From assembly GCA_900471515.1 (NCBI GenBank), contig UCFC01000020.1:62001-126000 (forward strand): a stretch of DNA of 64,000 nucleotides, written 5' to 3'. This stretch comes from Hyphomicrobiales bacterium. Lineage in GTDB: Bacteria > Pseudomonadota > Alphaproteobacteria > Rhizobiales > Rhizobiaceae. Positions 8,016 through 53,897 of the stretch are shown here, in pieces (the first letter of the stretch is position 1; every line of letters begins with the position of its first letter). The position numbers and the translations under genes are program-made. Under the pieces are notes generated by a model, which made no database searches, had not been told where the DNA came from, and worked only from the letters and a program-made list of their open reading frames with translations.

Positions 8016-8954
8016 ATGACAGAAGAAAACGAAATGGCAGCCCTTGGCGCTGCCGAAAGCCATCCGACGCATTCCGGCTTTGTCGCCCTGATCGGCCCGA
8101 CCAATGCCGGCAAGTCGACCCTGGTCAACCGCCTCGTCGGCGCCAAGGTGTCGATCGTCAGCCATAAGGTGCAGACGACGCGCGCCATCGTGCGCGGCAT
8201 CGCCATCCACAACAACGCGCAGATCGTCTTCATGGATACGCCCGGCATTTTCAAGCCGCGCCGCCGGCTCGATCGCGCCATGGTGACATCCGCCTGGGGC
8301 GGCGCCAAGGATGCCGATCTCATCATGCTGCTGATCGACAGCGAGCGCGGCCTGCGCGGCGATGCCGAAGCCATCCTCGAAGGCCTGAAGGATGTTCCGC
8401 AGAAGAAGATCCTCGTTCTCAACAAGATCGACCGCGTCAACCGCGAACTGCTTCTGGCGCTCGCCGCCACCGCCAACCAGAAGGTTGCGTTCGAGCAGAC
8501 CTTCATGATCTCGGCCGAAAACGGTTCGGGCTGCGACGACGTGATGGACTATCTGGCAAAGACCCTGCCGGAAGGCCCCTGGTACTATCCGGAAGACCAG
8601 ATTTCCGATCTGCCGATGCGCCAGCTCGCCGCCGAAATCACCCGCGAAAAGCTCTTCCTGCGCCTGCATCAGGAGCTTCCCTATTCCTCGCATGTCGAGA
8701 CGGAGAAATGGGAAGAGCGCAAGGACGGTTCCGTGCGCATCGAACAGGTCATCTATGTCGAGCGCGACAGCCAGAAGAAGATCGCGCTCGGCAAGGGCGG
8801 CGAGACGATCAAGGCGATCTCCTCGGCCTCCCGCCGCGAACTGTCCGAAATCCTCGAACAGCCGGTCCATCTCTTCCTGTTCGTCAAGGTGCGCGAGAAC
8901 TGGGGCGACGATCCCGAGCGCTTCCGCGAGATGGGGCTCGAATTCCCGCATTAG
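8016..8954 (+). CDS. era: GTPase Era
   Basis: Essential Ras-like GTPase that binds the 3' end of 16S rRNA and aids 30S maturation. The G1 motif GPTNAGKST, G2 region, DTPG (G3) and NKID (G4) are present, followed by a C-terminal KH RNA-binding domain with GKGGETIKAI near residue 250. I take the ATG at 8016 (MTEENEMAAL); an ATG at 8034 in the same frame is also possible. An open frame running 36 bases further upstream needs a TTG start inside rnc and is less likely. Confidence 0.96.
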   Translation: MTEENEMAALGAAESHPTHSGFVALIGPTNAGKSTLVNRLVGAKVSIVSHKVQTTRAIVRGIAIHNNAQIVFMDTPGIFKPRRRLDRAMVTSAWGGAKDADLIMLLIDSERGLRGDAEAILEGLKDVPQKKILVLNKIDRVNRELLLALAATANQKVAFEQTFMISAENGSGCDDVMDYLAKTLPEGPWYYPEDQISDLPMRQLAAEITREKLFLRLHQELPYSSHVETEKWEERKDGSVRIEQVIYVERDSQKKIALGKGGETIKAISSASRRELSEILEQPVHLFLFVKVRENWGDDPERFREMGLEFPH

Positions 8955-9049
8955 GGCTGCAACAAGCGCCGTCCAGCCCCTTGTTTCCGTGTGAAAATCG
9001 CGGCCTGTTGCAGGGAACCATTCGGCCTGCCCGCGCATTGATCCGCCAA

Positions 9050-9079
9050 CGGCGCCGCACCCTGCGGCGCCGGTTTTTG
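9050..9079 (+). terminator. Strong intrinsic terminator after era
   Basis: A perfect 10-base stem CGGCGCCGCA / TGCGGCGCCG with a three-base loop, followed by GGTTTTTG. It closes the lepB-rnc-era unit and separates it from the Crp/Fnr gene, which starts 16 bases later; that gene's promoter therefore has to lie upstream of or within this hairpin. Confidence 0.8.
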
Positions 9080-9095
9080 CGACGGCGGGGACCAG

Positions 9096-9848
9096 ATGGC
9101 GACGGCAAGACCCACCCATTCCTTCAAGACCCCCTGCGAGCAATGTCCGTTGCGGCCATTGCCGCATTTCCGCGAATTCAGCCGCGACGAGCTGGACTTC
9201 GTATCGAAGTTCAAGCGGGGCGAACTGGCCGTCGATGCCGGCGCGACGATATTGGTGGAGGGCGCCCACAGCGCCCATCTCTTCACCCTGCTTTCGGGCT
9301 GGGGCTTCCGCTACAAGATGCTGGAGGATGGCCGCCGGCAGATCCTGAACTATGTCATGCCGGGCGACCTGATCGGCCTGCAGGGCACGATCATGGGCGA
9401 GATGCAGCATTCGGTCGAAGCCCTGTCGCCGGTGACACTCTGCGTCTTCGAGCGCGACAAGCTGATGAGCCTTTACAACAGGCACCCGTCGCTCGCCTTC
9501 GACATTACCTGGATCGCCGCGCAGGAGGAGCGCATTCTCGACGAGCACCTGTTGAGCATCGGCCGCCGCACGGCGCTCGAAAGAGCCGCCTATCTCATTG
9601 CCTTCCTGTTCGAGCGCGCCAGGAAGCTCAGCCTGTTCCACGGCCGCAACGTCATCCCGATCACGCAGCAGCATATTGCCGATACGCTCGGCCTTTCGAT
9701 CGTCCACACCAACAAGACGCTGAAGAAGCTTGCGGGCCGCAACCTGATCCGCTGGCAGGAGCGCGGCTGCGACGTGCTGGACGGCGAGGGGCTGATGCAG
9801 GTGGCCGGCTGGGAGGGGCTGCACGAGGCAAAACGCCCCTTCATCTGA
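9096..9848 (+). CDS. Crp/Fnr-family transcriptional regulator
   Basis: 250-residue regulator with an N-terminal cyclic-nucleotide-type beta-roll (about residues 30-140), a long dimer helix and a C-terminal winged helix (about 165-240). Cys14 and Cys17 (CEQCPLR) precede the beta-roll and Cys116 (LCVFERD) sits where the fourth FNR cluster cysteine would be, but the third N-terminal cysteine of FNR is missing. The recognition helix reads SIVHTNKTLKKL and lacks the Glu/Ser/Arg pattern that reads the FNR box, so its DNA target probably differs. Ligand and targets are unknown. Confidence 0.88.
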   Translation: MATARPTHSFKTPCEQCPLRPLPHFREFSRDELDFVSKFKRGELAVDAGATILVEGAHSAHLFTLLSGWGFRYKMLEDGRRQILNYVMPGDLIGLQGTIMGEMQHSVEALSPVTLCVFERDKLMSLYNRHPSLAFDITWIAAQEERILDEHLLSIGRRTALERAAYLIAFLFERARKLSLFHGRNVIPITQQHIADTLGLSIVHTNKTLKKLAGRNLIRWQERGCDVLDGEGLMQVAGWEGLHEAKRPFI

Positions 9849-33193: not shown

Positions 33194-35107
<1,914 letters not shown>

Positions 35108-35111
<4 letters not shown>

Positions 35112-35587
35112 AGGTGATCCTCCGGCGGCCAGACCGGCGTATCGTGGTCCGGGTGCTGATAGGAGACGATCTCGCGCAGGAAGGAGCCGGCAGCGAGATC
35201 CGCCTCGGTGCGTTCTGCCGGCAGCTCGTGCAGGTGATCGACAAAGCCGATCTTGCCTTCCACGCCCCACTGGATGGTCGGCGGCAGTTGCGACGGATCA
35301 TCGAAGGCCCCGGCGGAAACCGACATTCCGTCCGGCGCCTCATAGGTCAGCGGCGTGCCGCAATCGCCGCAGAAGCCGCGGCTGACGAAATTCGACGACC
35401 GGAAGGTCTTGCGCTGCCCCCTGGTCCACTCGAATTCCATCCCGCGCACGGAAACGAGCGGCGCGTAATAGGCGCCGAACGCCTTCTGGCACATGCGGCA
35501 ATGGCAGATCGACGAATCCGGCGGCGTCCCCCGCGCCCGGAACCGGATCGCCCCGCATTGGCAGCCGCCGGTGTAAGTCTCGGTCAT
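35108..35587 (-). CDS. GFA-family zinc-binding protein, paralog 3
   Basis: 159-residue GFA-family protein: [42 protein letters not shown] and the terminal QHPDHDTPVWP box. The ATG at 35587 overlaps the DUF559 stop (ATGA) and also has its own AAGGA. The frame extends upstream within the DUF559 gene but without GFA similarity. First of the three paralogs in transcription order. Confidence 0.9.
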
Positions 35588-35952
35588 GGCAGATCCTTTC
35601 CGATGGTGCGGATGATGTGGCTGCACGCGTTGTCAATATCTTTGAGAATATCGTCATTCCAGAAACGGAGGACGGTCCAGCCGTCGGACTGTAGGCGTCG
35701 AGTGCGCGCGTCGTCATAAAGAGCGTTCTGGGCAAGCCCGTGCTGCGAGCCGTCTATTTCAACGATGAGTCGATACGTCGGGCATGCAAAATCGACGATA
35801 TAGCCAGCAATAGGCAATTGTCTGCGAAAACTAAGCCCCATCAGGCGGTGAGCGCGAAGCTCGTTCCAGAGCTTCAATTCAGCATCAGTCATGGTCTTGC
35901 GCATACGCCGGGCGTTCGCCCGTCGTTGCGGGGGAACTGGCGTATGCGACAT
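35584..35952 (-). CDS. DUF559 (endonuclease-like) protein
   Basis: 122-residue protein of the DUF559 family, which has a restriction-endonuclease-like (Vsr-related) fold. Core motifs are intact: LWNELRAHRLMGLSFRRQ, YIVDFACPTYRLIVEIDGSQH and DGWTVLRFWNDDIL with the acidic and glutamate positions of the fold. Function unproven. Base composition is lower in GC than the GFA genes it leads, and it abuts a RIME-like element, suggesting it arrived or was exchanged separately. Its stop overlaps the GFA paralog 3 start, so it heads the overlapping chain. Confidence 0.85.
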   Translation of the reverse strand: MSHTPVPPQRRANARRMRKTMTDAELKLWNELRAHRLMGLSFRRQLPIAGYIVDFACPTYRLIVEIDGSQHGLAQNALYDDARTRRLQSDGWTVLRFWNDDILKDIDNACSHIIRTIGKDLP

Positions 35953-35985
35953 GTCTTGCCTTCCGCTTAGAAACGCTGGGGCAAC

Positions 35986-36171
35986 ACCCCCCTCTGCCCT
36001 GCCGGGCATCTCCCCCACAAGGGGGGAGATTGGCAAGACGCGCCGGCCTCGCCAAATCTCAACGGCATGCTGAGCAGCTCTCACGGTACGGTATGAATAG
36101 TCCGGGCGAGCGGGTGCCCCCAGCCAATCTCCCCCCTTGTGGGGGAGATGCCCGGCAGGGCAGAGGGGGGT
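35986..36171. repeat. RIME-like element with perfect 49-bp inverted ends
   Basis: Left arm 35986-36034 and right arm 36123-36171 are exact reverse complements over 49 bases (ACCCCCCTCTGCCCTGCC ... to the CCAATCTCCCCCC end), separated by 88 unique bases. Each arm contains its own inner palindrome around CCCCC-ACAA-GGGGG. This resembles the intergenic mosaic (RIME) elements of rhizobia; the identification is from memory. It has no open frame and I see no target duplication. It lies 23 bases after the cysS stop and 34 before the DUF559 start. Confidence 0.85.
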
Positions 36172-36193
36172 ATGTCTCGCCGCCCAAACCATC

Positions 36194-37651
36194 CTAACGC
36201 TTGATCTCCCACGTCGTGACGCGCTCGCCAGTTGCCGCATCCTTGCCGTCCTTGAGCTGAATGCCCTCGGCAGCAAGCGTGTCGCGGATCTTGTCGGCCT
36301 CGGCGAAATTCTTCGCCTTCAAGAACTCCAGCCGCGCCTTGACCCGCGCATCGACTTCCACAGCCACCGCCTCGTCGATCTCGGTTTTTTCGAGCAAGTC
36401 GAATCCGAGGAGTTTTGCAGAAGCTACTAACGTTGCGACGAGCATTTGTTGTTCTTGTTCGACTTCATGTTCGGAGACTGCGCCGCGCTCGTGGAATGCT
36501 GCAAACGCTGATCCCGCAATCGTTGACAATCGTTGAACTGCTCGCTGTGTGCTCAGATCATCAGCCAAAGCTTTCAAGACCTGTGGATCGATCGGTGCCG
36601 TTGATTGTGACGAAAGCAGCTCCGCCGCTCGCTTCCATTTAGAAAGAGTGTTCGAAGCCTCTATGAGCTTATTCCAAGTAAAGTCGATCGGCTCGCGGTA
36701 ATGCGTCATCAGCATGGCAAGGCGCAGCACCTCGCCCGGCCATTGCCGGCCGGCGAAGGTTTCCGTGTGCAGGAGCTCGTAGATGGTGACGAAATTGCCT
36801 TCCGATTTCGACATCTTGCGGCCCTCGACCTGCAGGAAGCCGTTATGCATCCAGACATTCGCCATCACGTCCGTGCCGTGGGCGCACCGCGACTGGGCGA
36901 TCTCGTTCTCATGGTGCGGGAAGATCAGGTCCAGACCACCGCCGTGAATATCGAAGACGTCGCCGAGATAGCGCCCGCTCATGGCCGAGCACTCGATATG
37001 CCAGCCCGGCCGGCCGCGGCCCCAGGGGCTTTCCCAGCCGGGTTCGTTGTCGTCCGAGAGTTTCCAGAGCACGAAATCGCCGGGGTTTTTCTTGTGCGCA
37101 TCGACGGCGACGCGGGCGCCGGCCTGCTGCTCGTCGAGATTGCGCTTCGAAAGCTGGCCGTAATCGGCCATCGATTTCGTGTCGAACAGCACTTCGCCCG
37201 AAGCCTGATAGGCATGGCCGCGCGCAATCAGCCGCTCGATGATCTCGATCATCTCGGCAATATTGTCGGTCGCCCGCGGCTGCACGGTCGGCTCCAGCGA
37301 ACCGAGCGCCCTGGCGTCTTCGAGGAACTGCGTCTCGGTCTTTTCCGTCACCGCCCGGATCGCCGCGTTCAGCGGCAGGCCCGGATAGTCGCGCAGCGCC
37401 CGCGCGTTGATCTTGTCGTCGACATCGGTGATGTTGCGCGCATAGGTGACATGGCTTTCGCCATAGACATGGCGCAGCAGGCGGAACAAGACGTCAAAGA
37501 CGATGACCGGCCGCGCATTGCCGATATGGGCGTAATCGTAGACCGTCGGGCCGCACACATACATGCGGACGTTTTCGGCATCGATCGGCTTGAAAACCGA
37601 TTTCTCCCGCGTCAGCGTGTTGTACAGCTTCAGTTCCGGCGTGCCGCCCAT
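36194..37651 (-). CDS. cysS: Cysteinyl-tRNA synthetase
   Basis: Charges tRNA-Cys; also supplies Cys for mycothiol-independent thiol pools. The 485-residue class I enzyme has HIGH-type [12 protein letters not shown], zinc ligands including VCGPTVYDY and [10 protein letters not shown] and HHENEIAQS, and KMSKS at [11 protein letters not shown]. The start ATG at 37651 has GGAG six bases upstream; the 24 codons before it are not family-like. Odd: about residues 320-427 (positions 36370-36690) have much lower GC and many codons rare elsewhere (ATA, TTA, GTA, CGA), while both ends are normal. The protein still reads as a continuous enzyme. Confidence 0.95.
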
Positions 37652-37854
37652 TTCACTCTCCCAATATGCATAAGCAGAAAATAACCGCCGCCGGCAGGCC
37701 GGGGCGTTTCGCATCTTGGACATTTGGGAGACGAAAACGGCCAGGCCAGCTTTGGGCTAGCGAATAATCTTCCGGCAAATAATGCAGGTAACCGTTTTCA
37801 TGACGCGTTTTATGGCGCGGGATCGGGGTTTGGTCAAGTGAGTTGCCAAGCCAT

Positions 37855-37890
37855 TTCCCACATTGTCGTTTGCGTCACGAAATGTGGGAA
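37855..37890 (-). terminator. Inverted repeat after the SDR gene
   Basis: Perfect ten-base arms TTCCCACATT / AATGTGGGAA around a 16-base loop, beginning 11 bases past the SDR stop (minus strand). There is no T run, so an operator or bidirectional stop in the 250-base cysS-SDR gap are both possible. Confidence 0.4.
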
Positions 37891-37901
37891 GGAGGATCGA
37901 C

Positions 37902-38642
37902 TCAGCCCGGCAGCCGGTAATCCGCCAGCTTGTTCTCGCGCACGATGAACAGCTTGCCGGTCTCCGTCACGCCGGGGCCGAGCAGGGGAAGGATCGCTTT
38001 GGCCACTTCGGACGGATGCGGCAGGCTCATCGGGTCTTCGCCGGGAACCGCCTGCGCCCGCATGGCCGTGCGCGTCGCACCCGGATCGACGCTGGTGATG
38101 CGCAGCGGCGTCGATTGCGTCTCGCCGGCCCAGGTGCGCGCCAGCGCCTCGACGGCGGCCTTGGAGGCCGAATAGGCGCTCCAGAACGGGCGGCACTTGT
38201 GGGCCGCGCCCGAGGACATGATGACGGCGCGGCCGGCATCCGAGTGGGTCAGCAGCGGGTCGACCGAGCGGATGAGGCGCCAGGTGGCGTTGACGTTGAT
38301 GTTCATCACCTTCTCGAACACCTTCGCCTCGATATGGCCGATCGGCGAGATGACGCCGAGCATGCCGGCATTGGCGACGAGAATGTCGAGCTTGCCCCAG
38401 CGCTCGAAGATCGAGCCGCCGAGACGGTCGATCGCTTCCATGTCTGCGAGGTCGAAGGGGACGAGCGTGGCCGAGCCGCCGACGGCCTTGATCGCGTCGT
38501 CGAGTTCTTCCAGCCCGCCGACGGTGCGCGCGCAGGCGATCACATGCGCGCCGGCCTTGGCGAGTTCGAGGGCGGTGAAATAGCCGATGCCGCGCGAAGC
38601 GCCCGTCACCAGCGCGATCCTGCCTTCAAGATTGATGTTCAT
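37902..38642 (-). CDS. Short-chain dehydrogenase/reductase
   Basis: 246-residue NAD(P)-dependent Rossmann-fold oxidoreductase. Cofactor motif TGASRGIGYF, DLADME, NAG in VANAGMLG, and the catalytic Ser with YSASK (SSGAAHKCRPFWSAYSASK). ATG at 38642 is preceded by GGGGCAG; 14 further in-frame codons upstream have no support. It follows purF, its usual rhizobial neighbour. Substrate unknown. Confidence 0.9.
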   Translation of the reverse strand: MNINLEGRIALVTGASRGIGYFTALELAKAGAHVIACARTVGGLEELDDAIKAVGGSATLVPFDLADMEAIDRLGGSIFERWGKLDILVANAGMLGVISPIGHIEAKVFEKVMNINVNATWRLIRSVDPLLTHSDAGRAVIMSSGAAHKCRPFWSAYSASKAAVEALARTWAGETQSTPLRITSVDPGATRTAMRAQAVPGEDPMSLPHPSEVAKAILPLLGPGVTETGKLFIVRENKLADYRLPG

Positions 38643-38670
38643 CTGCCCCGGTCCCGCATGTGCTTGATAA

Positions 38671-38696
38671 GATAAGGGGCGCAATAAGCGCCCCGG
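38671..38696 (-). terminator. Terminator after purF
   Basis: GGGGCGC / GCGCCCC, a perfect seven-base stem with a five-base loop, followed on the minus strand by TTATCTTATC, 30 bases after the purF stop. Confidence 0.6.
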
Positions 38697-38726
38697 ATCG
38701 GAAAGTCAAAGCGCAACAGCATCGCC

Positions 38727-40217
38727 TCAACCGTTGCTGGCGAGCATGGAAATCTTGTTCCCCATGGACTCGCCGTTCTTGTCGAGCAGGCGGGTCGGGT
38801 AGTCGCCGGTGAAATAATGGTCGGTGAACTGCGGCCGGGCCGGGTTGCGGTCCTCGCCGCCGACGGCGCGATAGAGGCCGTTGATCGACAGGAAGGCGAG
38901 CGAATCCGCGCCGATATATTTCGCCATGGCTTGGACATCGGCATACTGGTTGGCGAGCAGCTTGTCGGCGTCAGGCGTATCGATGCCGTAGAAATCCGGG
39001 AAGAAGATCATCGGGCTCGCAACGCGGATATGCACTTCCCTGGCGCCGGCCTCGCGGATCATCTGCACGATCTTCAGCGAAGTCGTGCCGCGCACGATGG
39101 AATCGTCCACCAACACCACGCGCTTGCCTTCGATCATCGCCCGGTTGGCGGAATGTTTCAGCTTCACGCCGAAGGCGCGGATCTGCTGCGTCGGCTCGAT
39201 GAAGGTGCGGCCGACATAGTGGTTGCGGATGATGCCGTATTCGAACGGAATGCCGCTTTCCTGCGCATAACCGAGGGCCGCAGGCGTGCCGCCATCGGGA
39301 ACCGGCACGATCACGTCGGCATCGACGGGCGATTCCTTGGCGAGGTTCATGCCCATGTTCTTGCGCGTCGTATAGACGTTGCGGCCGCCGACGACCGAGT
39401 CCGGGCGGGCGAAATAGACATATTCGAACAGGCAGAGCCGCTCGGGCTGCTGCTTGTTCGGCTTGCGGGCATCGATGCTGATCGAACCGTCGGGCTGGAT
39501 TTCGCAGATGACGACCTCGCCGTTCTCCACGTCGCGGATGAACTTGGCGCCGATAATGTCGAGCGCGCAGGTTTCCGAGCAGAAGATCGGCTTGCCGTCG
39601 AGTTCGCCCATGACGAGCGGGCGGATGCCGGTGGGGTCGCGTGCCGCAATCAGCTTCGTGCGCGTCATGGCGAGCATCGAATAGCCGCCTTCCATCTGGC
39701 GGATGGCGTCGATGAAGCGGTCGGCGGTGGAGGTGTGGCGCGAGCGGGCGATGAGGTGCAGGACGACTTCGGTATCGGATGTCGACTGACAGATGGCGCC
39801 GGTGGCGATGATCTGGCGGCGCAGCGTCAGGCCGTTGGTGAAATTGCCGTTATGGGCAATGGCGATGCCGCCTTCTTCCAGTTCGGCAAACAGCGGCTGC
39901 ACGTTGCGCATCGCCACTTCGCCCGTCGTCGAATAGCGCGTATGGCCGATCGAGATGCTGCCGGGCAGGCGGGCGAGCGTCATCGGATTGGTATAGTGGT
40001 CGCCGACGAGGCCCATATGGCGCTCCTGGTGGAAGCGCTTGCCGTCGAAGGAGACGATGCCGGCCGCTTCCTGCCCGCGATGCTGGAGCGCGTGCAGGCC
40101 GAGCGCCGTCAGCGCCGCGGCATCGTCATGTCCCAGAATTCCGAAAACGCCGCATTCTTCATGCAGCGTATCTCCGTCGAGCGGATCGTCAATCGGGAAG
40201 GAATGGGACTGGTTCAT
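38727..40217 (-). CDS. purF: Amidophosphoribosyltransferase
   Basis: First committed step of purine synthesis: glutamine plus PRPP to phosphoribosylamine. The 496-residue protein has a 21-residue leader before CGVFG, so Cys22 must become the N-terminal nucleophile after processing. The glutaminase domain (to about 240) contains GHTRYSTTG and AHNGNFTN; the phosphoribosyltransferase domain has VVLVDDSIVRGTTS. The cysteines that hold an iron-sulfur cluster in the Bacillus-type enzyme are not evident near the C-terminus (TDHYFTGDYPT). It follows cvpA in the conserved radA-cvpA-purF order. Confidence 0.96.
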   Translation of the reverse strand: MNQSHSFPIDDPLDGDTLHEECGVFGILGHDDAAALTALGLHALQHRGQEAAGIVSFDGKRFHQERHMGLVGDHYTNPMTLARLPGSISIGHTRYSTTGEVAMRNVQPLFAELEEGGIAIAHNGNFTNGLTLRRQIIATGAICQSTSDTEVVLHLIARSRHTSTADRFIDAIRQMEGGYSMLAMTRTKLIAARDPTGIRPLVMGELDGKPIFCSETCALDIIGAKFIRDVENGEVVICEIQPDGSISIDARKPNKQQPERLCLFEYVYFARPDSVVGGRNVYTTRKNMGMNLAKESPVDADVIVPVPDGGTPAALGYAQESGIPFEYGIIRNHYVGRTFIEPTQQIRAFGVKLKHSANRAMIEGKRVVLVDDSIVRGTTSLKIVQMIREAGAREVHIRVASPMIFFPDFYGIDTPDADKLLANQYADVQAMAKYIGADSLAFLSINGLYRAVGGEDRNPARPQFTDHYFTGDYPTRLLDKNGESMGNKISMLASNG

Positions 40218-51187: not shown

Positions 51188-51653
51188 GACAGCTTTGCCT
51201 TTCTTGCGTTGATCAGAACCCGGCATTCGGCGGCTAAGCCTCAACGACTGCTCCTGAGAGGCATGATACGCCAAGCAAGAAAAGCGTTTCCGAGACGGTC
51301 GAGAGCGGAGACACGGGAGGCTGGAACGCTTCCGTTCCAAACGGTTTGCACGAGGCAGACCGGCCCTCCGTTCAGCCACCAGCCAGAAGACCGGGTTAAC
51401 GAACAGGCGCGCTTATACGGATTTTTGCGCGAAAGGCAAGGGAAGGCGGCAAGAAACCTTATTTCGTCGCATCCGGCCGAAAGAAGGCGGTCTGTCCCGG
51501 CGGAATGTCGATGAAGAACCGGTCGTCGGCGAAGGGCAGCCGCTGCGTTCGGAAAAATCACGTGCTGGAACTGAAAGTATGGCGCCCGTGACCGGTTGGC
51601 TGCCACTTACCGGCGAAATGCGAACACAAACAGGGGCCGTCGCCTGTCGGACA
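51188..51653. promoter_or_regulatory. Upstream region and leader of rpsF
   Basis: About 466 bases with no gene I can support. It must contain the rpsF promoter. A short minus-strand frame (51459 to about 51560) encodes a protein-like tail, DDRFFIDIPPGQTAFFRPDA, but is closed by a stop upstream and has no start; it may be a gene remnant. Larger open frames here have no domain or ribosome-binding site. Confidence 0.4.
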
Positions 51654-51700: not shown

Positions 51701-52744
51701 TCAGAGCGGCATCGGATACTGCCGGTGAACCTTCTCGATCTCTGCCAGCACGTCGCTGCCGAGTTTGACGCCGGCCGATCCGATATCCGTCTTCAGCTGC
51801 GCCATCGAGGTCGCGCCGATGATGACGGAGGTCATGAAGCGGCGGGTCAGGCAGAAGGCGAGCGCCATCTGCGAAGGGTCGAGCCCGTGGCGGGCGGCAA
51901 TGTCGAGATAGGCCCGCGTCGGCGCTTCCTGCAGCGGCTGCAGGCGGCCGCCGAGATCGCCGTTGATCGCGGCGCGCGTGCCCGCCGGCTTTTCGCCGTT
52001 GATGTATTTGCCGGTCAGGATTCCCGCGGCAAGCGGCGAATAGGCCAGCAGGCCGACATTTTCGTGATGGGAAAGTTCGGCCAGGTCGAGATCGAAATGG
52101 CGATAGAGAAGATTGTACTCGTTCTGCACGCTGGCCACGCGCGGCAGGTTCAGCTGCTCGGACAGCGTCACGTATTTCTGGATGCCCCAGGTGGTTTCGT
52201 TGGACAGGCCGAAGGCGCGGATCTTGCCCGCCTTCACCAGTTCGCCCATGGCCTCGACGATCTCGGTCATGTTGGCGACGGCTTTTGCGCTGTCCTGCTT
52301 GAACGGGTCGTAGTGCCAGCTCTGGCGGAAATGGAAATGGCCGCGGTTCGGCCAGTGGACCTGGTAGAGATCGATGTAATCGGTCTTGAGCCGTTTCAGG
52401 CTGGCGTCGATCGCAAGCCTGATGTTTTTGGCATCGGCGCCTTCGCCGTCGCGCAGATAGGAGCGGCCCGTGCCGGCGACCTTGGTGGCAAGCACGATAT
52501 CTGCGCGCTTGCCGGTCTTTTCAAACCAGCTGCCGATATATTCTTCCGTGCGGCCCTGCGTTTCGGCCGAAACCGGCGTCGTCGGGTAGAGTTCGGCCGT
52601 GTCGAAGAAATTGATGCCTTCCTGGACGGCGTAGTCCATCTGCTCGTGGGCTTCCGCCTCGCTGTTCTGCGTGCCCCAGGTCATCGTTCCCAGGCAAATT
52701 TCGGAAACGGAAATATCTGTGCGGCCTAATTTATTGTATTTCAT
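51701..52744 (-). CDS. tas: Aldo/keto reductase, Tas-like
   Basis: 347-residue aldo/keto reductase close to E. coli Tas throughout, for example ICLGTMTWGTQNSEAEAHEQ, FFDTAELYP, ETQGRTEEYIGSW, LYQVHWPNRG, LSNETTWG and YINGEKPAGTR. Catalytic Asp, Tyr, Lys (ATKVAG) and His (QVHWP) are intact. Physiological substrate unknown; Tas was found as a suppressor of a tyrosine auxotroph. The start is the ATG at 52744. Divergent from fabD across about 200 bases. Confidence 0.9.
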   Translation of the reverse strand: MKYNKLGRTDISVSEICLGTMTWGTQNSEAEAHEQMDYAVQEGINFFDTAELYPTTPVSAETQGRTEEYIGSWFEKTGKRADIVLATKVAGTGRSYLRDGEGADAKNIRLAIDASLKRLKTDYIDLYQVHWPNRGHFHFRQSWHYDPFKQDSAKAVANMTEIVEAMGELVKAGKIRAFGLSNETTWGIQKYVTLSEQLNLPRVASVQNEYNLLYRHFDLDLAELSHHENVGLLAYSPLAAGILTGKYINGEKPAGTRAAINGDLGGRLQPLQEAPTRAYLDIAARHGLDPSQMALAFCLTRRFMTSVIIGATSMAQLKTDIGSAGVKLGSDVLAEIEKVHRQYPMPL

Positions 52745-52919
52745 CGGGAACCTTGAACGTCGTCTGAGAAAGGGAAGGGCTTGCGAAGAACCGCGCAAAT
52801 CTAGGCTGGATTTGCTGAAGCGCAAGAGAAAAAACCGGGCTTTCCCGCTGGCGCGAAAGGCTTTGGAGAGAATCGGCCGCCACTTGACTCTCAAGGAAAG
52901 AATGTCAATTGGAGGCGAA

Positions 52920-52949
52920 ATGGCCCGATGGGCACTATCGAGGAACTGA
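52920..52949 (+). promoter_or_regulatory. Possible nine-codon leader frame before fabD
   Basis: GGAGG at 52911-52915 is followed by ATG at 52920 and a frame of nine codons (MARWALSRN) ending three bases before the fabD ATG. The fabD ribosome-binding site (GAGGAA) lies inside the mini-frame, so translation of the two could be coupled. May be chance; a -35-like CTTGACT lies at 52883. Confidence 0.3.
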
Positions 52950-52952
52950 AAA

Positions 52953-53897
52953 ATGACCGTTGCTTTCACTTTTCCCGGCCAGGGCAGCCAGGCCGTCGGC
53001 ATGGGCAAGGATCTCGCCGAGAGCTTCGCGGAAGCCCGCGCCGTTTTCGAAGAGGTCGACGAAGCGCTCGGTGAAAAGCTTTCCGACACCATGTTCAACG
53101 GTCCCGAAGACAAGCTGACGCTGACGGCCAATGCCCAGCCGGCGCTGATGGCCGTCTCCATGGCCGTCATCCGCGTTCTGGAGGCCAGGGGTCTCGACCT
53201 GAAGGCCAGGGTCGCCTATGTCGCCGGCCATTCGCTCGGCGAATATTCCGCCCTCTGTGCCGCCGGCACCTTCTCCATCGCCGATACGGCCCGCCTTCTG
53301 CGCATTCGCGGCAATGCCATGCAGGCCGCCGTGCCGGTCGGCGTCGGCGCCATGGCCGCCATCATCGGCCTCGAACATGCCGATGTGCAGGCCGTCTGCG
53401 AAGAGGCTGCGGCCATCGGCTCCTGTCAGATCGCCAATGACAATGGCGGCGGCCAGCTCGTCATATCCGGTGAGAAGTCGGCTGTCGAAAAGGCGGCCGG
53501 CCTTGCGACCGAAAAGGGCGCCAAGCGCGCCATCCTGCTGCCGGTCTCCGCGCCCTTCCATTCGAAGCTGATGGCGCCCGCCGCCGACGCCATGCGCGAG
53601 GCGCTGGCCGGCGTGAAGAAGGCCGATCCGCGCGTGCCGCTCATCGCCAACGTCCGTGCCGCCCCCGTCACGGATGCCGAAGAAATCGCAAGCCTTCTCG
53701 TCGAGCAGGTCACGGGTCAGGTCCGCTGGCGCGAGACGGTGGAATGGTTTGCCGCAAACGGCGTGACCACGCTTTACGAACTCGGCGCCGGCAAGGTGCT
53801 CACCGGCCTTGCGCGCCGCATCGACAAGACTGTCAATGGCGTCCCGGTCAACGGCCCGGCCGATATCGACGCCGCCATTGCCGCTCTCACGGCCTGA
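52953..53897 (+). CDS. fabD: Malonyl-CoA:ACP transacylase
   Basis: Loads malonate onto ACP for fatty-acid elongation. 314 residues, with FTFPGQGSQAVGMGKDL at the start, nucleophile Ser in GHSLGEYSALCAAG (about residue 92) and His in APFHSKLM. First gene of fabD-fabG-acpP-fabF, the classical fatty-acid cluster. Confidence 0.97.
   Translation: MTVAFTFPGQGSQAVGMGKDLAESFAEARAVFEEVDEALGEKLSDTMFNGPEDKLTLTANAQPALMAVSMAVIRVLEARGLDLKARVAYVAGHSLGEYSALCAAGTFSIADTARLLRIRGNAMQAAVPVGVGAMAAIIGLEHADVQAVCEEAAAIGSCQIANDNGGGQLVISGEKSAVEKAAGLATEKGAKRAILLPVSAPFHSKLMAPAADAMREALAGVKKADPRVPLIANVRAAPVTDAEEIASLLVEQVTGQVRWRETVEWFAANGVTTLYELGAGKVLTGLARRIDKTVNGVPVNGPADIDAAIAALTA

Follow-up and report, generated by a model that had tools for sequence, protein, structure and literature searches.

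The cysteinyl-tRNA synthetase (CysRS) gene, cysS, found in the 64,000-nucleotide stretch of DNA from a Rhizobiaceae soil bacterium analysed here (the window) is very probably a natural chimera, in which a stretch of approximately 290 bp encoding the whole helical-bundle (DALR) domain has been replaced by its orthologous counterpart from a distant cysS of lower GC. The gene displays a domain-exact replacement in an otherwise vertical, single-copy and in-frame context. Its 12 closest relatives match the protein at 95-97% identity outside the block and at 43-47% inside it; the flanks harbor 12-13 differences in 388 aligned residues, against 38 in 70 for the block (Fisher p ~1e-25). Replacement of part of the tRNA-binding region in cysS by recombination with a divergent donor, as proposed in the first-pass annotation, is the best reading of these figures. 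The features concerned are collected in Table 1.

Table 1. Features of the cysS region, in window coordinates.
Feature	Coordinates	Strand	Basis
cysS, cysteinyl-tRNA synthetase, 485 aa	36194..37651	-	translation, Pfam, genome search
Conserved stretch preceding the block in coding order, codons 315-324	36680..36709	-	left limit at codon 324/325
Replaced block, codons 325-421, putative foreign helical-bundle (DALR) domain	36389..36679	-	codon alignment, identity drop, codon statistics, predicted helices
Right limit, native sequence resumes, codons 422-429 (KTEIDEAV)	36365..36388	-	residue identity to 12 relatives
Palindromic repeat of 186 bp; its two 62-nt arms are 90% complementary and separated by 62 nt	35986..36171	.	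repeat search
DUF559 gene (endonuclease-like), resident, lower GC	35584..35952	-	Pfam DUF559, E 2e-39

The cysS gene and the limits of the block

The gene contains no internal stop and is the sole cysS match in the whole genome. Its product has the fold of a CysRS (match to 1u0b, E 1.3e-41), which it has in common with the E. coli enzyme (PDB 1u0b/1li5) over a near full-length alignment. Pfam places the class I (C) catalytic domain (PF01406) at residues 20-332 (E 5e-113). The C-terminal CysS_C match at residues 432-472 scores 17.8 bits (E 0.0036), under the 23-bit cut-off, as does that of a native relative, L031, at 17.4 bits. DALR_2 gives no Pfam match in the window's protein and a weak one in L031 (16.5 bits, cut-off 22). 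Within 84 aligned sequences, H42, G44, N45, K279, M280, K282, S283, C33, C221, H246 and E250 are invariant, and I43 and S281 nearly so; we take H42-N45 and K279-S283 to be the HIGN and KMSKS signatures, and the Cys, His and Glu positions to be zinc ligands. Like bacterial CysRS in general, the window's enzyme is encoded by a single gene with its catalytic motifs. Unlike them, it has a helical-bundle domain that is apparently foreign to the remaining protein, and it is 27 residues longer than in sister species (485 against the 458 of the closest proteins in the genus).

The limits of the block are sharp. Codons 314-324 specify a residue identical in 12 of 12 close relatives and codons 325-328 in none; at the other end, codons 420-421 agree with none of the 12 and codons 422-430 with 11-12. 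The block spans the gap between the Pfam catalytic and C-terminal matches, and an AlphaFold2 model built from the 84-row alignment (pLDDT 94.3, pTM 0.89; 89-98 per ten residues in the block) predicts helices at residues 326-343, 356-363, 368-390 and 394-414. Taken together, the Pfam limits and the predicted helices indicate that the swapped piece would be the helical-bundle (DALR) domain in its entirety, both ends falling in loops. In CysRS, this helical bundle contacts the tRNA.

The composition of the DNA changes at the same place. Rather than the single low-GC patch running from DUF559 through the repeat into cysS that had been described earlier, the GC profile contains two separate dips, of 0.535-0.605 at 35500-35899 and 0.51-0.56 at 36300-36799, with GC of 0.585-0.670 between them (35800-36399). 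A region as low in GC (0.525-0.54) lies at 37600-37899 and spans the start of cysS and the sequence upstream. The first dip (~35600-35900) is the DUF559 gene, and the second (~36300-36800) is sharply bounded and lies inside cysS. Since DUF559 and the palindrome are resident, as outlined below, the apparent single patch is a coincidence of neighbours. The abrupt change within cysS itself was correctly recognized: GC and GC3 are 0.505 and 0.464 in codons 325-421, against 0.623 and 0.830 in the remaining gene, and the limits first given, 36370-36690, agree to about 20 bp with the measured 36389-36679. The scarce codons named at that time are also found to cluster in the block. Between its 97 codons and the remaining 388, the counts are CGA 3 vs 0, TCT 2 vs 0, ATA, TTA and GTA 1 vs 0 each, and ACT 2 vs 1, and the block is also rich in GCA (7 vs 1), CAA (5 vs 1) and TCA (4 vs 0).

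Of the 53 ORFs in the window, 37 were testable, and none of the others dips as deeply in internal GC3 as cysS (-0.38). The dip is more than chance because it is the deepest of the 37 and the runners-up (-0.35 and -0.29) both fall in out-of-frame ORF extensions. These two, at 33197-34750 and 51704-53170, are ORF-calling artefacts, with Pfam domains and likely starts located after the dip; at 33194-34750, the longest ORF extends an alpha/beta hydrolase gene upstream and out of frame, and the second extension belongs to an aldo-keto reductase gene. The GC3 level of the block is reached by 16 of 4165 scoring windows in ORFs other than cysS, at least five of which lie in the extension of 33197-34750. 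Compared across CysRS sequences, GC3 in the block is 0.37 under that of its own flanks, whereas the 183 other sequences average -0.05 (sd 0.06); among all 184 distinct CysRS, L190 and L194 approach the drop.

Close relatives, trees and neighbouring elements

Comparable contrasts are absent from two native pairs. Between L002 and L200 there are 12 differences in 388 residues outside the block and 3 in 70 inside (p 0.71, no contrast), and between L002 and L006 there are 17 and 8, respectively (p 0.04, a slight contrast). In bins of 20 alignment columns, nucleotide identity of the window's gene to L002 runs at 0.85-1.0 ahead of the block and 0.33-0.75 across it, followed by 0.90, 0.88 and then 0.73 in a short last bin. 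In the 184 distinct CysRS, a non-random sample in which some loci were picked as block matches, some as relatives of L190, and others because they ranked as the 80 best matches to the window protein, 178 pairs without the window have flanks at least 0.95 identical, and their block identity never falls below 0.786; the window's 12 such pairs have block identities of 0.43-0.47. The native domain is present in all 13 close-clade genomes read (L002-L006, L199-L206), so the contrary outcome, with both parts of the gene giving the same tree and close relatives displaying the same codon pattern, is absent. A cysS match occurs in 147 of 148 genomes of the genus, the window's own included, the exception (G111) being an 82% complete draft. 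In an alignment of the window with G109, the unaligned stretches are between ORFs or touch ORF ends (up to about 70 bp, at 51440-51511), except for the DUF559/repeat stretch and the cysS block, the latter being wholly inside cysS. The tRNA-Cys is 100% identical in seven of seven genus genomes tested, the window's own among them, and 96-97% identical in two distant family members. A change in tRNA-Cys as the cause is ruled out for the genomes tested, where its sequence is identical, and the foreign domain must therefore work with the old tRNA.

The first-pass annotation had called for separate phylogenies of the two parts of cysS. In the flank tree, the window's cysS sits inside its own clade (SH-aLRT 95). 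The segment tree lacks the native clade, and the shortest paths from the window lead to L117, L112 and L114, which belong to other genera; forcing the native clade on the segment is borderline, with an AU p of 0.097, or 0.051 for a wider clade, on 79 columns with long branches. A FastTree run with segment limits of 330-426, five residues off, gave the segment no firm position (support 0.13), and even the closest rows lay about 2 substitutions per site from it.

The palindromic repeat sits just downstream of cysS, and the DUF559 gene follows. A full DUF559 gene is found between the cysS and GFA (glutathione-dependent formaldehyde-activating) genes in 4 of 34 relative loci (L004, L033, L041 and L059), at 76-90% amino acid identity, and a partial copy in L034; in several other loci, for instance L002 and L031, a GFA gene directly follows cysS. 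The DUF559 GC is 0.56 in the window and 0.57-0.62 in the four loci. Alignments of the DNA to L033 and L004 stay at 87-88% identity across DUF559 and the palindrome, break off at 36396 and pick up again at 36681; the one to L041 also crosses the repeat. Because both elements occupy the same place in several relatives, they are resident rather than co-acquired, and the earlier idea that they arrived in the same event as the cysS block is not upheld.

The 186-bp element resembles the rhizobial intergenic mosaic repeats; an Rfam scan of 34000-39000 returned nothing at gathering thresholds. Of 231 loci, some of them duplicates, 50 carry a similar motif no more than 400 bp downstream of cysS, among them all five genomes seen of a genus designated g105. 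It follows six of the nine low-GC3 sequences described below, against the 50 of 231 overall. As five of these six come from one genus, a link between palindrome and domain change stays a lead. In L278 (G379, 8560-9260), the last 36-44 cysS codons and the palindrome are repeated downstream, with a single N there, reflecting either a recent duplication or a mis-assembly. On the other side of DUF559, three tandem GFA family genes (34150-35587) adjoin the alpha/beta hydrolase; each paralogue matches the counterparts of the others in relatives at roughly 44-51%, and there too the array lies beside cysS.

Related domains in other genomes

The window is not alone in having an unusual block. GC3 in the block is more than 0.25 under that of its own flanks in 9 of 212 distinct CysRS (L001, L137, L190, L194, L245, L248, L250, L256 and L258), and in 15 of the 184 with a flank neighbour at 0.80 or above, the window included, block identity to the nearest such neighbour is below 0.5. 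In all five genomes seen of g105, the block has a GC3 of 0.54-0.64 and the flanks 0.88-0.94, and the four other blocks are 23-29% identical to that of L190, with flanks at 75-87%. Two members of this genus, L248 and L256 (the latter from a 69% complete draft), have protein flanks that are 93-94% identical and domains that are 27-28% identical; by nucleotide bin, the flanks are at 0.83-0.98 and most of the domain at 0.18-0.43, with one edge bin at 0.67. Around six such genes, in stretches of 20 kb (one of 8 kb) with 4-14 testable ORFs each, only cysS dips beyond -0.25 in GC3 once three out-of-frame ORF extensions are set aside, the next-deepest dips being -0.12 to -0.22. The dip in a hydrolase ORF near cysS in L275, L276 and L278 was rejected as an out-of-frame N-terminal ORF extension. 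By these comparisons, at least one further Rhizobiaceae genus has a domain that is either replaced or hypervariable. As no donor or native sister is known there, rapid divergence in place may account for the g105 domain. The helical domain of L245 (g105) matches that of L160, from genus g80, at about 55% identity over 91 residues, and that of its own congener L190 at only about 29%.

A near match to the block was found in none of the genus, family, order and class genomes, plasmids, phages and viral contigs searched. In genome sets that overlap and each include the window's own genome, the block search returned 34 of 148 genomes in the genus at E 0.001 (best other genome E 5e-6, 48% over 63 residues), 71 of 297 and, at E 1e-7, 21 of 393 in the family, 29 of 397 in the order and 18 of 385 in the class. 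The best matches are the CysRS of other Rhizobiaceae genera, mostly 46-54% identical over about 60 residues, and the nearest blocks include L041 (0.49 over 70 residues) and G250 (54% over 57). Plasmids and phages gave no match to the 97-residue block at E 1e-5; in viral contigs, 13 stretches fit a pattern, none of them a relative of the block, and the 80 viral CysRS loci kept have weak block similarity (best 31% identity, E 5e-4). Sinorhizobium phage Phosso (469 kb) carries an annotated cysteinyl-tRNA synthetase gene (L360, 2507-3877), whose product shares 38% identity with that of the window; a tRNA of undetermined type and a gene annotated as serine-tRNA synthetase lie nearby.

Explanations and meaning

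The domain could instead have diverged in place under relaxed or positive selection, with its codon bias decaying alongside. Across the family, the domain is far more variable than the remaining CysRS (median domain identity 0.39 at flank identity 0.75-0.80), the low GC3 of g105 could mean weak codon selection, and the non-ORF GC of the window is 0.566. For the window's block, divergence of this kind is nevertheless very unlikely: its flanks differ by about 3% whereas 38 of 70 residues have changed and 27 are extra, the close-clade genomes keep the native domain, a GC3 of 0.46 is under even the non-ORF GC, and at either end the transition takes no more than a few codons. An assembly error or contamination that put foreign sequence into cysS would be conceivable in a draft of 83 contigs. 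It is, however, a very slight prospect here, given that both joins are in frame and at domain limits, that the predicted structure of the block is, with high confidence, a CysRS helical domain, that no source sequence was found and estimated contamination is 0.24%, and that the repeated pattern in g105 argues against a one-off error.

The adjacency of DUF559, repeat and cysS block, and the lower GC of the first and last, would suit one larger foreign segment that carried all three. This reading has almost no probability left and is refuted for the relatives examined, in which the alignments continue through DUF559 and the repeat and break at the block; DUF559 keeps its place in the four loci and, on the block's near side, native sequence makes up most of codons 422-437. 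An origin of the block in a phage-borne or plasmid-borne cysS is highly improbable. Phages such as Phosso do carry CysRS genes, CysRS encoded on IMG/VR contigs reach 55% overall identity, 624 plasmid records have a CysRS match, and low GC suits mobile DNA, but the block itself has no plasmid or phage match at E 1e-5 and its viral similarities are weak, whereas cellular Rhizobiaceae are nearer, at 48-54% over about 60 residues.

The preferred reading is exchange with a cellular cysS. As no donor was found, we infer the recombination partner, which would be an unsampled alphaproteobacterium of roughly 50% GC; the donor stretch probably came from outside the sampled genomes. Homologous or homology-assisted recombination would have swapped the ~290 bp, with one end in the conserved catalytic block and the other at the start of the C-terminal domain. 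The enzyme apparently tolerates the swap, as would be expected if the domain is a permissive module.

Mosaic genes have native flanks, a foreign middle and in-frame joins, and the window's cysS resembles them in each respect, with an abrupt identity change at both limits and deviant codon use (GC3 0.46 vs 0.83) in mosaic-gene tests. Homologues of aph(3')-IIa are reported as an example of mosaic genes formed by intragenic recombination (PMC4437187). Unlike these, the present case concerns an essential housekeeping enzyme, its limits match one structural domain, and the nearest known sequence to its foreign part is about 50% identical. The usual picture of aminoacyl-tRNA synthetases is one of co-evolved units whose transfer, where it happens, involves the entire gene. 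Among the open-access papers listed by the literature searches, no title or abstract start dealt with domain replacement in CysRS. The synthetases are prone to horizontal replacement, and one account deals with whole-gene transfer and homeoalleles (PMC3191353). Passages of that text concern replacement of entire genes, and the word intragenic does not occur in it, whereas in the window one internal domain has been exchanged.

Given the pattern in g105, this position in cysS appears prone to such exchange, and the domain is most likely a permissive module that is repeatedly replaced by recombination within conserved flanks. A bolder view, which we hold to be doubtful, is that the CysRS helical bundle of Rhizobiaceae forms a hypervariable, AT-richer cassette within an essential enzyme, which can be exchanged and is repeatedly renewed, under selection, from a pool that is for the most part unsampled, with the window as a recent exchange still in its native flanks; candidate drivers would be an inhibitor, toxin or phage factor docking on the domain or on the enzyme-tRNA contact. 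With one domain of an essential synthetase exchanged cleanly and the tRNA remaining the same, the window's cysS provides a natural experiment on interchangeable synthetase parts. If selection drives the exchange, it would point to an agent acting on CysRS.
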